A DNA stretch of 50,350 nt. Source: an uncultured Bacteroidales bacterium (GTDB taxonomy: Bacteria > Bacteroidota > Bacteroidia > Bacteroidales > Bacteroidaceae). The position numbers and the translations under genes are program-made. Shown one piece after another: positions 529 through 50,350 of this stretch. Position 1 is the stretch's first letter, and each line of letters opens with the position of its first letter. The stretch covers positions 1 through 50,350 of the forward strand of contig CAMAMB010000011.1 in NCBI GenBank assembly GCA_945836755.1, read 5' to 3'. A model generated the notes under the pieces. That model was not told where the DNA came from. It ran no database searches and worked only from the letters and a program-made list of their open reading frames with translations.

Positions 529-580
529 CGACCCACCTCGGTGTGCCATTTCATCTCTGCCCGAGTGAGTGGCAAATCTT

Positions 581-735
581 AGATGTACATGTAGAAAAAA
601 CTGGATGTACATGTAGGAAAACCTGGATGTACATGTAGGAAAACCTGGATGTACATGTAGAAATAACTGGATGTACATGTAGAAAATACTGGATGTACAT
701 GTAGGAAATCTTAGATGTACATGTAGAAATTTGGG
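581..735. repeat. 22-bp ATGTACAT array no. 1, seven copies
   Basis: The core ATGTACAT starts at 583, 605, 627, 649, 671, 693 and 715, exactly 22 bp apart. Each copy reads roughly TGGATGTACATGTAG followed by an A-rich spacer, so the unit is a near-palindrome plus an A-tract spaced by two helical turns. Translations across it give only periodic peptides such as MYIQ-FLHVHP and are taken as artefacts. It lies just past the conserved end of the hairpin cluster. Confidence 0.92.
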
Positions 736-5811: not shown

Positions 5812-7833
<2,022 letters not shown>

Positions 7834-8002: not shown

Positions 8003-9514
8003 TCAGCAGGTCTTGCGCCGCACCCCGTACTCCGTGCTGAACTGCCGTCTCCGCTTCGGAACGTGGAGGGCTCTCAGCGCACGCCCCATCTGCTGCACGC
8101 TCACCCCTTGCAGAGCGTGCGGAAAGTGCTTGCGCAGGTCTTCATAGATTTTGCCCGTAGCCATCCATACTGTCGGCCCGCCGCCGCACGCTACGTCGTA
8201 ACGCTGCATGAAGGCCTCGGCCAGAGGCGTGGTGTGATAGAAGGTCCGGTTGTGTCGCTCTATCTCCTGCTCCTCTTCCTTGCTGAAGAAGGTGGGCTCT
8301 CCCGCCGCTATCTCCGCCATCACTTGCGCGTAGAGTTGTGCGTGGGGTAGCGGCGAGCGGTCTATTACGTCGGTCACGGCCTGACAGTAGAAGCGCCGCG
8401 AGCCGGTGGGGTCAGTCAGCAGTTCGGAGTAGTTTGAGGTGCCGATGAGCGATGCCACCCTTCGGCAGCGCACTACGCCGTGGGCATAAGGCTGCTTCAC
8501 CTTTACCTCCGTCAGCTGCATTAGGTTCTTCAGAGTGCCCGTCTGCCGTTCCGAGTATCTGTCATACTCGTCCATATTGATTAGTCCACAACTTGCGAGA
8601 CAGCGTTCCGCTCCCGAGTCGGCGGTCAGGTCAAACTTGTCGGTGTAGTAGTCCTGTAGCTCCGCCGGCAGCAGGTTTCGGCAGAAGGTGCTCTTGCCCA
8701 GTCCCTGTCTTTCGCTGATGAGCAGGGGCGCCATCTGGTTGGCGTAAGCCTCCTCGTCTGTGCCCTGTGCGAGCCATCCCTTGACCATTCCCCGCATCCA
8801 TCTTCTGAACACTTTTAGCCACATCTCCTCGCCGCTCACCCTCCGTGCCAGGTCGCCCACGTGGTCGTGGCCGTCCCAGGTCGGCAGATGCTCCAAGTAG
8901 TGGCGCAAAGGGTGATACATCTCCACCTTCTCCGACATGAGGTAGCTGTCCACCCAGCTCTTGTAGCACAGCGGGATGTGCTCTTGCACGTCGATCACCA
9001 TGGCGTTGTGCATTCTCTTGTCCACGGGGGTGAAGGTTTCGGCGTCGTAGCCCTTGGGTCGTCGTTCGAGGTTACATGTCATGGAGTTGTACCGCAGGTC
9101 CCATTTCTCTTCCAGACAGCGCGCTATGCGTCCGGGTATGAGCAGACTATCATTGCGTGCCTTCTCTCTCTCGCCCTCTGCCTTGGGTGTCTCAGCGGGT
9201 GTAGAGGCCGGCCCCGCCGTGGTCGTTCCGGCCGTTGCGTCGTCCGCTTCGAAGGCCGGCTTTGTATCTGTCTCGGTCTCTCTGACAGGGGGATTGTAGG
9301 GGAGAGGTTCGGGCGCAGCCTCCTTGCCGTTGGTTGTGGATTCGTGTGGCTGTGTGGCTGCTTCATGGCCGGCCTCCATGAGGTTGGTCACCAGCCGGAG
9401 TGCATGTACGAGGATTGTCCGGCGTCTTTCATCGCTGAGCGACGTCCAGGTGTCATGCAGCGAGGCAATGAGGGGAGTGAGGGCAGCAATGTGGGTGTGT
9501 GACGCAGTGTGCAT
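8003..9514 (-). CDS. VapE-family P-loop ATPase with DUF3874 C-terminus
   Basis: This 503-residue protein starts with a low-complexity Ala/Thr/Glu-rich region (to ~residue 130). A VapE (virulence-associated E) domain follows, with KWDLRYNSMTCNLE, then Walker A SERQGLGKST (about 266-275), Walker B GLINMDEYD, and the GTSNYSELLTDPTGSRRF segment with a likely arginine finger. The last ~90 residues match the DUF3874 type of helical tail. Such proteins resemble SF3/D5-like replication ATPases and are common in prophages, satellites and integrative elements of Bacteroidota, usually next to a primase. Here no primase, integrase or structural gene accompanies it, so it may be a relic of an island or a domesticated gene. 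It stands alone on the reverse strand beside repeat clusters. Confidence 0.82.
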   Translation of the reverse strand: MHTASHTHIAALTPLIASLHDTWTSLSDERRRTILVHALRLVTNLMEAGHEAATQPHESTTNGKEAAPEPLPYNPPVRETETDTKPAFEADDATAGTTTAGPASTPAETPKAEGEREKARNDSLLIPGRIARCLEEKWDLRYNSMTCNLERRPKGYDAETFTPVDKRMHNAMVIDVQEHIPLCYKSWVDSYLMSEKVEMYHPLRHYLEHLPTWDGHDHVGDLARRVSGEEMWLKVFRRWMRGMVKGWLAQGTDEEAYANQMAPLLISERQGLGKSTFCRNLLPAELQDYYTDKFDLTADSGAERCLASCGLINMDEYDRYSERQTGTLKNLMQLTEVKVKQPYAHGVVRCRRVASLIGTSNYSELLTDPTGSRRFYCQAVTDVIDRSPLPHAQLYAQVMAEIAAGEPTFFSKEEEQEIERHNRTFYHTTPLAEAFMQRYDVACGGGPTVWMATGKIYEDLRKHFPHALQGVSVQQMGRALRALHVPKRRRQFSTEYGVRRKTC

Positions 9515-10228: not shown

Positions 10229-10335
10229 CCTACATGTACATCCCGATTTACCTACATGTACATCTAGTTTTTCCTGCATGTACATCCCGTCAAACCTGCA
10301 ATACATCCCGTCAAACCTGCAATGCTTCCCGTGAG
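10229..10335. repeat. 22-bp ATGTACAT array no. 2, three full and two decayed copies
   Basis: ATGTACAT begins at 10234, 10256 and 10278, 22 bp apart. Two decayed copies follow near 10300 and 10321, where CCTGCAATACATCCC and CCTGCAATGCTTCCC keep the spacing. Orientation is opposite to array 1, with T-runs after the core on the + strand. It follows directly after the conserved end of the hairpin array, as at 484-735. Confidence 0.85.
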
Positions 10336-14274: not shown

Positions 14275-14600
14275 GGCACGCAGGCAGTCAAGGGCAGGCT
14301 GCGGCGCAGGCCGCAGAGGTACACCTGCCTCAGACGTGAGGCGCCTCGCTCCCCTCACCACCCCACACCGCCCCACACACCCGACATTCCCCGCCCAACT
14401 CCCCTTTGCCCACACCTCACCCCGTAGTTACTCCGTCGGCCGGCAGCCCCCTGCCCCTCAGGCCGCACAGCCGGAGAAGCTACGGGGTGACTGCGTAGAA
14501 AGGCCCGCCCACCTCTGAGCGGCGGCGGCACGGCGGCAAGCAGGCGTGGCATCGGAGGGGGCGAGCCAAGACGCTGGCCGGGGCAGCTGAGGCTTGCGCG
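14275..14600. other. Gene-free stretch after greA
   Basis: A hairpin CTGCGGC/GCCGCAG near 14299-14316 may mark the greA transcript end, but it lacks a T-run. The rest is C-rich without a recognised gene. Confidence 0.4.
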
Positions 14601-14601
14601 G

Positions 14602-14735
14602 CAAGCGGCGAGGCTTCAGCTGCAAGCGGCCAAGGCTTCAGCTGCAAGTGGTAAGGCTTCAGCAGCAAGCGGCCAAGGCTTCAGCTGCAAGTGGTAAGGC
14701 TTCAGCTGCAAGCGGCCAAGGCTTCAGCAGTGGCA
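14602..14735. repeat. 21/22-bp minisatellite AGGCTTCAGCTGCAAG
   Basis: About six units of AGGCTTCAGCTGCAAG alternate between CGGCCA and TGGTA endings, giving a ~43-bp dimer period. Some units carry CAGCAGC instead of CAGCTGC. One reading frame is in phase with the downstream HIT gene and gives Ala/Lys/Ser-rich peptide, but a TAnnTTTGC promoter lies between them, so it is probably not translated. Confidence 0.8.
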
Positions 14736-19921: not shown

Positions 19922-20030
19922 CTACATGTACATCTAAGATTTCCTACATGTACATGCCGTTAAAACTACATGTACATGCCGTTCAGACTACATGTACATG
20001 CCGTTCAGACTACATGTACATGCAGGTGAA
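19922..20030. repeat. 22-bp ATGTACAT array no. 3, five copies
   Basis: ATGTACAT starts at 19926, 19948, 19970, 19992 and 20014, exactly 22 bp apart. Spacers vary (AAGATTTCCT, GCCGTTAAAACT, GCCGTTCAGACT), so the core and its period are conserved better than the linker. It sits between the protease and the methyltransferase genes. Confidence 0.9.
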
Positions 20031-27839: not shown

Positions 27840-27994
27840 TTCATAAGCCGACCCTCAGGCCGCCGCCGCGGTGTACACCGGCAGCACGCCCGCCCCTTTA
27901 AGGCTCGAGGCAGAAGAACCATCGCAAGGCACCACACACGCTCGTCGCCCTACGGAGGGGCGCAGCTGAAGACCCGCGCCTTCCATGAAATCTT

Positions 27995-28188
27995 ACATGT
28001 ACATGCAGTTTTAACGGGATGTACATGTAGAAAAAACTAGATGTACATGTAGAAAAAACTAGATGTACATGTAGAAAAAACTAGATGTACATGTAGAAAA
28101 AACTAGATGTACATGTAGTTCGAACGGGATGTACATGTAGGAAAAACTGGATGTACATGTAGATAATCTTAGATGTACATGTAAGAAA
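27995..28188. repeat. 22-bp ATGTACAT array no. 4, nine copies
   Basis: ATGTACAT starts at 27997, 28019, 28041, 28063, 28085, 28107, 28129, 28151 and 28173, all exactly 22 bp apart, the largest array in the window. Four consecutive units (28041-28128) are nearly identical, with CTAGATGTACATGTAG and then AAAAAA, which suggests recent duplication. It lies between the converging pnp and nadB genes. Confidence 0.95.
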
Positions 28189-28226
28189 AACCGGGAGCAT
28201 GGCAGGACTTTCTCCCATGCTCCCGG
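28186..28226 (-). terminator. Intrinsic terminator of nadB
   Basis: CCGGGAGCATGG (28191-28202) pairs with CCATGCTCCCGG (28215-28226). On the reverse strand the stem is followed by TTTTTCTTAC, so it terminates nadB. It abuts the repeat array. Confidence 0.85.
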
Positions 28227-35928: not shown

Positions 35929-35937
35929 GCAAAGATA
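35929..35937 (-). promoter_or_regulatory. Promoter -7 element of the MG2-like gene
   Basis: The reverse strand reads TATCTTTGC, with TTGC just upstream. Transcription would start about 60 bases before the ATG. Two further copies of this region lie in the 84-bp repeat. Confidence 0.5.
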
Positions 35938-36145
35938 GTGCAAGGCGAAGGCATCGAGGCGGAAAAGCCGAAGTTTTTTCCGGCCTCGGTGCTGAGCCGC
36001 CGCCTATTTACTTGAAAGATAGTGCAAGGCGAGTGTGCTGTGGCGGCAAAGCCGAAGTTCTTTCCGGCCTCGGTGCTGAGCCGCCGCCTATCTACTCTAA
36101 AGATAGTGCAAGGCGAGTGTGCTGTGGCGGAAAAGCTGCAGAGGT
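35931..36145. repeat. 84-bp tandem repeat spanning the promoter region, 2.5 copies
   Basis: AAAGATAGTGCAAGGCG begins units at 35931, 36015 and 36099, 84 bases apart. The first two are nearly full copies, with GCCGAAGTT(C/T)TTTCCGGCCTC and GAGCCGCCGCCTAT. The third stops near 36140. On the reverse strand each carries CTTGCACTATCTTT. Only the copy nearest the gene keeps G at the next position (TATCTTTG); the others read TATCTTTC and TATCTTTA. Confidence 0.88.
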
Positions 36146-36194
36146 TGTGCCTCCCCTTCCTCCGCCCTACCCGCATCGTACCCCGCCATACGGA

Positions 36195-36325
36195 CCATGT
36201 ACATCCGGCCTTTCCTACATGTACATCTAGTTTTTCCTACATGTACATCTAGTTTTTCCTACATGTACATCTAGTTTTTTCTACATGTACATCTAGTTTT
36301 TCCTGCATGTACATGTAGTTTCTCT
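36195..36325. repeat. 22-bp ATGTACAT array no. 5, six copies
   Basis: ATGTACAT starts at 36197, 36219, 36241, 36263, 36285 and 36307, exactly 22 bp apart, in the orientation with T-runs after the core. It lies in the divergent region between the MG2-like gene and the secreted-protein operon. The rest of this gap (36326-36540) holds nothing I recognise. Confidence 0.93.
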
Positions 36326-50186: not shown

Positions 50187-50257
50187 CCCGCAGCCGGGGA
50201 CTGACCCGCCGTCCCTCGCTGCTCCCCGACCTACGGACCATGGTCCGCCAACAGGCC

Positions 50258-50350
50258 GGATGTACATGCCGAAAGAGGCACATGTACATCCGGCCTTTCC
50301 TACATGTACATCTAGTTTTTCCTGCATGTACATCTAGTTTTTCCTGCATG
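50258..50350. repeat. 22-bp ATGTACAT array no. 6, four full copies plus a cut-off fifth
   Basis: ATGTACAT starts at 50260, 50282, 50304 and 50326, with the next at 50348 truncated by the window end. The period is again exactly 22. The segment CATCCGGCCTTTCCTACATG is shared with the start of array 5. The array may continue beyond the window. Confidence 0.9.

Follow-up and report, generated by a model that had tools for sequence, protein, structure and literature searches.

The tandem arrays of ATGTACAT that recur at a fixed step of 22 bp between the genes of an uncultured Bacteroidales bacterium are probably arrays of cognate sites for the HU-HIG proteins (PF18291). The window, meaning the whole stretch of DNA that was analysed, is the complete contig C11 (50,350 bp), whose right end breaks within an array. 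It belongs to an assembly of 2.25 Mb that is 85% complete, and the proteins encoded in the window match families typical of Bacteroidales.

Results

Arrays in the Window and Its Genome

ATGTACAT occurs 36 times in the window, against 0.26 occurrences expected from shuffles. Thirty-four of these copies are contained in six arrays of 3 to 9 exact copies each (Table 1); the single copies outside the arrays are located at 5968 and 11556. The second array in Table 1 extends into diverged units, ATGTATTG and then AAGCATTG, at 21 bp. The fourth is flanked by the convergent pnp and FAD-binding (FAD_binding_2, Succ_DH_flav_C) genes.

Table 1. Location of the ATGTACAT arrays in the window
Feature	Position	Strand	Exact cores	Step	Remarks
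ATGTACAT array	580..730	+	7 (583-722)	22 bp	
ATGTACAT array	10229..10332	-	3 (10234-10285)		
ATGTACAT array	19922..20023	-	5 (19926-20021)	22 bp	diverged linkers
ATGTACAT array	27993..28190	+	9 (27997-28180)	22 bp	
ATGTACAT array	36193..36321	-	6 (36197-36314)	22 bp	divergent genes either side
ATGTACAT array	50256..50350	-	at least 4 (50260-50333)		contig end cuts array

The window was combined with stretches of contigs C2, C3, C5, C6, C7, and C9 into a sample of 344,658 bases. Exact cores in this sample were 22 bp apart 78 times, 44 bp apart twice, and 66 bp apart once; no other spacing was found up to 120 bp. Genome-wide, there are 458 ATGTACAT steps of 22 bp. The sample contains 20 arrays, about one per 17 kb, and ATGTACAT is the largest family of such arrays seen in this genome. 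Regular spacing of the arrays along the chromosome was not seen (one in 97.6 kb of C2, six in the 50 kb of C11), and contigs C3, C5, and C11 each terminate inside an array. The first-pass annotation had described six intergenic ATGTACAT arrays with a fixed 22-bp period, which these counts confirm; the arrays are distributed genome-wide, at fixed spacing and between genes, rather than being confined to the window, following other periods, or falling within genes.

The window also harbors tandem repeats of 85 bp (1-231, 2.7 copies) and 84 bp (35931-36136, 2.5 copies), each about four lattice units long. A VapE-like/DUF3874 gene (8003-9514) is located about 720 bp from an ATGTACAT array.

Conservation of Core and Linker

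Substitutions were counted in interior lattice units only, and a match to the core was not demanded of a unit. Changes affected 4 of 520 core sites (0.8%) and 244 of 910 sites at the remaining 14 positions (26.8%), and 42 distinct linkers were present among the 78 steps of 22 bp. The core and the spacing are constrained, whereas the linker is free. This contrast is unlike the expectation for a neutral tandem repeat. The repeat had been described as a 16-bp near-palindrome followed by about six A residues. In this genome, however, conservation covers the 12-mer ATGTACATGTAG and not the symmetric 16-mer; the A-tract is not a fixed part of the unit, since the spacer (positions 17-22) of 104 oriented units contains a run of A in 49, a run of T in 21, and neither in 34.

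These data bear on the possibility that the arrays are neutral slippage repeats with a favoured step of 21-22 bp, spread by gene conversion. Perfect two-copy duplications of 21 bp do occur, a C9 array contains a higher-order repeat of at least 66 bp, and neighbouring linkers are slightly more alike than others (0.238 for neighbours, 0.271 within an array, 0.375 between arrays). However, slippage does not lead one to expect the invariance of the core or the association with HU-HIG genes described below, and arrays of one or three helical turns are few (in this genome, one of 11 bp and none of 31-33 bp). Neutral slippage was already disfavoured, and we consider it very unlikely. Constrained cores and spacing, together with the connection to a family of DNA-binding proteins, support the initial preference for a phased protein-binding site over slippage, with the arrays as putative sites.

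Two further candidates were set aside. A self-palindromic linker was unsupported in four of five groups, the 'misc' group being in excess, in a weak test whose shuffle mixes orientations. By eye, 21/22-bp arrays other than ATGTACAT seemed to offer a convincing case for RNA hairpins with compensatory changes, but the shuffle test did not bear this out, with six cells found compared to 7.2 in shuffles. Inverted repeats show only slight enrichment in the other 21/22-bp arrays, reaching p<0.05 in 10 of the 49 congener arrays and in 0 of the 22 arrays from this genome, and the period is therefore more general than the palindrome.

Genomic Placement and Mobility

According to a simple, purpose-written gene caller, 14 of the 20 arrays sampled in this genome are located between called genes, in seven tandem, five convergent, and two divergent gaps. 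Five have no called gene on one side (contig end), and one overlaps a low-scoring ORF by 12 bases. Among 60 arrays in loci of other genomes, 28 are in tandem, eight in convergent, and eight in divergent gaps; 14 lack a gene on one side, and two overlap a called gene. Divergent gaps thus hold 2 of 14 and 8 of 44 arrays with genes on both sides, respectively, and the suggestion that the arrays are transcript-end elements (terminators or other 3'-end elements) was dropped on this ground. A comparison of 30 loci for each of the gaps beside pnp, metK, and the FAD-binding gene revealed turnover of the arrays, which are apparently common only to close species. A SAM-II riboswitch (1195-1254) is present upstream of metK (1453-2754) in the window.

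A mobile repeat had also been proposed. The arrays would then be non-autonomous MITE- or REP-like minisatellites whose core is kept for recognition by an enzyme, and their adjacency to HU-HIG genes would be incidental or a result of shared mobility. The arrays are species-specific, intergenic, and multi-copy, as are the BrickBuilt elements of Porphyromonas gingivalis that they resemble. By eye, STF2_138-like metagenome-assembled genomes (MAGs) carry, at several places, elements whose similar linkers follow one another in a common order, and a GGAAGCAT-like word is frequent at the right edges of the arrays in the window's genome. However, inspection by eye of 80 bp on either side of the 20 arrays revealed short edge words only, with no longer common leader, tail, or inverted ends. 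The Y1/RAYT transposase (PF01797) had no match in the 85% complete genome, compared to matches in 5 of 14 control genomes. Its presence does not track the arrays in congeners either: 21 of 41 genomes exceeded the cut-off, including G004, which has no 21/22-bp rhythm, and excluding G002, which has it. RAYT or IS200-type mobility was therefore rejected as the candidate mechanism. Mobility also does not predict arrays before HU-HIG genes, and we regard this explanation as unlikely.

Species-Specific Sequence and Shared Period

Three ATGTACAT cores at 22-bp steps were found in none of 36 congeners and in none of 24 genomes from other families of the order. ATGTACAT was rejected as a common Bacteroidota word, as even one pair is present in only 2 of 395 genomes in a phylum sample and 4 of 393 in an order sample, the window's own included. 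A scan of genome contigs for the ATGTACAT pattern returned at least 59 loci, among those 56 from Bacteroidota by title, two from Anaerolineales, and one from Periweissella. Across whole genomes, 15 of the scan-matched genomes have 2 to 88 ATGTACAT steps. In Hs463_bin99 and the STF2_138-like MAGs, the lattice continues beyond the cores with other words. In several STF2_138-like loci (L154, L150, L199, and others), the ATGTACAT arrays are flanked by 21-bp units consisting of variable 7-8-mers and TATTAAATTTCTA, inverted on the opposite side.

The period is more widely shared than the sequence. Of all non-coding tandem arrays, whatever their sequence, 47 of 51 in the window's genome had a period of 21/22 bp or multiples thereof, as compared to a period of 21 or 22 bp in 49 of 163 in congeners (G004 and G062 supply 84 of the remaining 114) and 0 of 14 in other families. 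The non-coding repeats of G004 and G062 (L049-L068, L079-L083) are mainly of 8, 9, 16, and other lengths. The top lag of the intergenic autocorrelation was 21 or 22 in 8 of 11 individually listed congeners, weakly so in G019; the exceptions were G063 (42, then 21) and G062 and G004 (8 or 9 first). The pooled other families gave no 21/22 peak. The window's genome still peaks at lag 21 after ATGTACAT is masked, and its other array families include TTTCGGCCGAAACCACATCTGT and ATGCCACCTTGCATTCGCACCA. A AGGCTTCAGCTGCAAGCGGCCA array in the window (14590-14728), with a 43-bp double unit (21+22), is another family of the same rhythm. The sequence of the arrays is species-specific, and the period is genus-wide.

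HU-HIG Genes beside ATGTACAT Arrays

HU-HIG genes (PF18291, E<=1e-12) were sought in 80 genomes. Of the 16 genomes with ATGTACAT arrays, 15 contained such genes, versus 2 of 24 controls from other families (p=5e-8); they were also present in 2 of 4 genomes with a single ATGTACAT pair and in 29 of 36 congeners, although the threshold and incomplete assemblies blur these counts.

In a Pfam scan of 20 array-side proteins from 12 loci (isolates or low-copy genomes), one was an HU-HIG protein. This protein, from Labilibaculum manganireducens (L171), is encoded 88 bp from an ATGTACAT array, a layout repeated in a second Labilibaculum and in a Marinifilaceae MAG. A profile built from eight HU-HIG proteins was then searched against the 59 listed loci; six were positive, and the match was always the gene adjoining the array. 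Taking the first array per locus and matches of at least 45 bits, HU-HIG genes made up 6 of 102 array neighbours versus 0 of 287 other genes of the same loci (p=0.0003). The six represent fewer independent lineages, because L160 and L205 are close relatives, and L171 was among the profile seeds and is not independent, although Pfam had found it first. A plain-HU-like match in L173 (39.6 bits, about 2 kb from the array) was excluded from the count.

In five of the six loci (L171, L160, L205, L196, and L151), the array is located at about -150 to -40 from the HU-HIG start codon, as it also is in L294, which had been picked for its adjacency. The sixth locus, L203, instead has its array after the stop codon of the HU-HIG gene, and the same holds for L293. 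We noticed post hoc that the sole ATGTACAT pair of G817 is about 70 bp past the stop of its sole HU-HIG gene (E<=1e-12). The HU-HIG proteins beside ATGTACAT arrays in other lineages are short forms (125-158 aa; L205 is cut) and are 20-38% identical to that of L171, a point that counts against the HU-HIG assignment.

The association has exceptions. G076 has ATGTACAT arrays and no HU-HIG gene at E<=1e-12; G595 and G825 have one ATGTACAT pair each and no HU-HIG gene; and the pair in G434 is away from its three HU-HIG genes. Among the matches listed for G067, G068, G069, and G074, no HU-HIG gene is beside an ATGTACAT array. The congeners G032 and G034 (the latter 75% complete) have 21/22-bp arrays yet no HU-HIG gene at E<=1e-12; G032 has one weak match with an in-frame stop. 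G004, the congener without the rhythm, also has none at this threshold, nor do G006, G012, G014, and G021, which are outside the rhythm sample.

A MAG titled Anaerolineales UBA5796 (L203, L197) contains ATGTACAT arrays and seven HU-HIG genes, one of them beside an array, which may reflect either transfer of gene and array as a pair or a binning error. Such a pair, as if transferred together, would fit an account in which protein and array serve replicon conflict or the marking of self-DNA and not ordinary regulation. The number of HU-HIG genes per genome, which ranges from 0 to 29 at E<=1e-12, and the different cores of close species point in the same direction; overall, we judge this account improbable. 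No ATGTACAT triples were found in viral contigs, and a phage origin was set aside, a result that says little alone.

HU-HIG Genes of the Window's Genome

Five HU-HIG paralogues were identified in the window's genome, on contigs C13, C59, C4, C23, and C34. ATGTACAT is absent from the pieces around all five genes in this 85% complete assembly, and an HU-HIG protein reading ATGTACAT was not found among the five paralogues seen. Two of the genes have other arrays upstream. The TTTCGGCC-family array before the C13 gene recurs as multi-unit clusters at three other sampled places (best identity 21/22), and the ATGCCACC-family array before the C59 gene at five (19-20 of 22), whereas the units never gave more than one cluster once shuffled. 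Single places matching at least 16 of 22 positions numbered 30 for C59, which equals the highest shuffle (30; mean 10.4). In a 12-mer test, C13 was in the top 5% and C59 in the top 8% of genes, being equalled by 11 and 18 of the 218 controls, respectively; these ranks are not higher because other genes also have arrays.

The C4 gene is preceded by a 22-bp-like stretch with a single weak cluster elsewhere, inside the shuffled range. No array was found within 300 bp of the C23 gene. The frame of the C34 gene (L288 1174-1587) is interrupted close to its beginning by one in-frame stop; this gene has no array within 300 bp, but one of 21 bp is located about 600 bp upstream. The word GAAGCATTG in L288 is also found at the edges of ATGTACAT arrays.

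Arrays Upstream of HU-HIG Genes in Congeners

We used TRF to search the 400 bp upstream of 12 HU-HIG genes from eight congeners (batch 1). Four had a 20-23-bp array, and a fifth (L300) was recognized by eye and by its lag of 22. Among control genes, arrays were found upstream of 12 of the 158 drawn from these eight congeners (p=0.017) and of 38 of 785 in all congener samples (p=0.002); when the entire batch (4 of 12) was compared to genes with long non-coding upstream regions (24 of 179), p was 0.08. All five positives have reading frames of at least 203 aa (long forms), whereas none of the seven genes with frames of 189 aa or less (short forms) was positive. One short form scored as negative (L301, G019) has a 32-bp tandem array upstream, a period of about three helical turns.

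A second batch consisted of 11 HU-HIG genes with frames of at least 200 aa, taken from the matches listed, and the prediction that long forms carry arrays was recorded before the result. TRF detected a 20-23-bp array in eight of these, all but L309, L311, and L314, with a period of 23 bp in one case. This proportion differs from the 38 of 785 genes (p=1e-8) and, among genes preceded by 250 bp or more of non-coding sequence, from 24 of 179 (p=3e-5). In both batches together, 12 of 16 long forms had an array. Across 19 cases listed by hand, the centre of the array falls at about -80 to -195 relative to the start codon.

The units of these upstream arrays were searched against 2.49 Mb of sampled DNA, to which each batch 1 genome contributed less than 5%. 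Four of the five batch 1 families recur in the same genome, with one cluster in G020, two and three in G019, and one in G009; the family from G008 had none. One weak cluster was found in another genome (G026, 16 of 22). For batch 2, two of eight families recur in the same genome (one cluster in G036, and one in G020 with two in G008), and the other six had no second copy in samples of 13 to 54 kb. The flanks of the G008 and G020 arrays are closely similar; by eye, however, the centre of the array differs across the units together, being of the type TATCA-TTATGG-TGATA in one and TATCA-TGCGCA-TGATA in the other.

Structure of HU-HIG Proteins

A model of the L171 protein, calculated from six sequences (mean pLDDT 85, pTM 0.63), matches HU and IHF structures. 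The matches include HU crystals titled with 19-20 bp DNA, a length near the lattice step. The long HU-HIG forms consist of an HU/IHF-type domain and a C-terminal part that weakly resembles a winged helix: in four long forms, this part had weak matches to winged-helix regulators, with best E values of 1.4e-4 against solved structures and 4e-6 against Pfam (one member).

Discussion

If the arrays are the sites of HU-HIG proteins, each protein would own an array of private sequence, placed in front of its gene and repeated across the genome. One dimer may occupy each 21-22 bp, or two helical turns, with dimers packed side by side; the core would supply the sequence specificity, and the packing would be cooperative. 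Binding before its own gene could set the level of the HU-HIG protein, and binding at the dispersed intergenic arrays could create local nucleoprotein stretches that regulate genes or organise the chromosome. Nucleoid organisation, a role proposed for the arrays at the outset, is possible. Species would swap protein-array pairs, so that the core differs while the period stays.

A broader proposal, which we put forward tentatively, is that HU-HIG proteins may be fast-diversifying, sequence-specific, array-binding chromatin proteins. Each paralogue would have a 21-22-bp lattice to itself, started in front of its gene and spread through intergenic DNA; close species would run different sets, and a cell could have several parallel, addressable chromatin systems.

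The assignment of the arrays to HU-HIG proteins would provide a family whose targets we found described nowhere with a concrete candidate target, the array before the gene. It would also explain why most sampled species of the genus have a 21-bp intergenic rhythm whose sequence changes by species. If binding is confirmed, HU-type proteins would have to be credited with sequence recognition in cooperative lattices, and a comparison of protein-array pairs over dozens of species could show how specificity co-evolves.

Comparison with Known Systems

A search of the open-access literature yielded no paper linking HU-HIG proteins with such repeats; for the repeats, BrickBuilt alone looked relevant. 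A 2017 paper reportedly deals with HU clades.

The array-side proteins match the HU-HIG branch (PF18291; NCBIfam TIGR01201, HU_rel) of the HU/IHF superfamily, and the L171 protein was modelled with the HU/IHF fold. HU binds DNA with little sequence choice, and IHF binds at single sites. In contrast, the arrays described here are tandem, private in sequence, spaced at 21-22 bp, and paired with genes.

BrickBuilt, a minisatellite-MITE of P. gingivalis, consists of 23-nt units repeated in tandem between genes, in which some sites are conserved and others vary (PMC4596501). Most elements possess a leader or tail bearing short inverted ends, indels amount to at most 6% per element, one strain has 19 copies, and BrickBuilt_14 adjoins a gene listed as a PF00216 DNA-binding protein (PMC4596501). 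Compared with BrickBuilt, the ATGTACAT unit has 22 bp and not 23 nt, its spacing is fixed, and a link to a protein is seen.

REP/BIME sequences with their RAYT are likewise species-specific short palindromes in intergenic clusters; here, however, the unit has 22 bp, and the genome yielded no RAYT match. Plasmid iterons and operator arrays with a step of about 22 bp are direct repeats two helical turns apart that are bound by the product of a neighbouring gene, whereas the ATGTACAT arrays are scattered over the chromosome at the sampled density given above. The parts are of known kinds; what appears to be new is that an HU-type family is paired with private, dispersed lattices.
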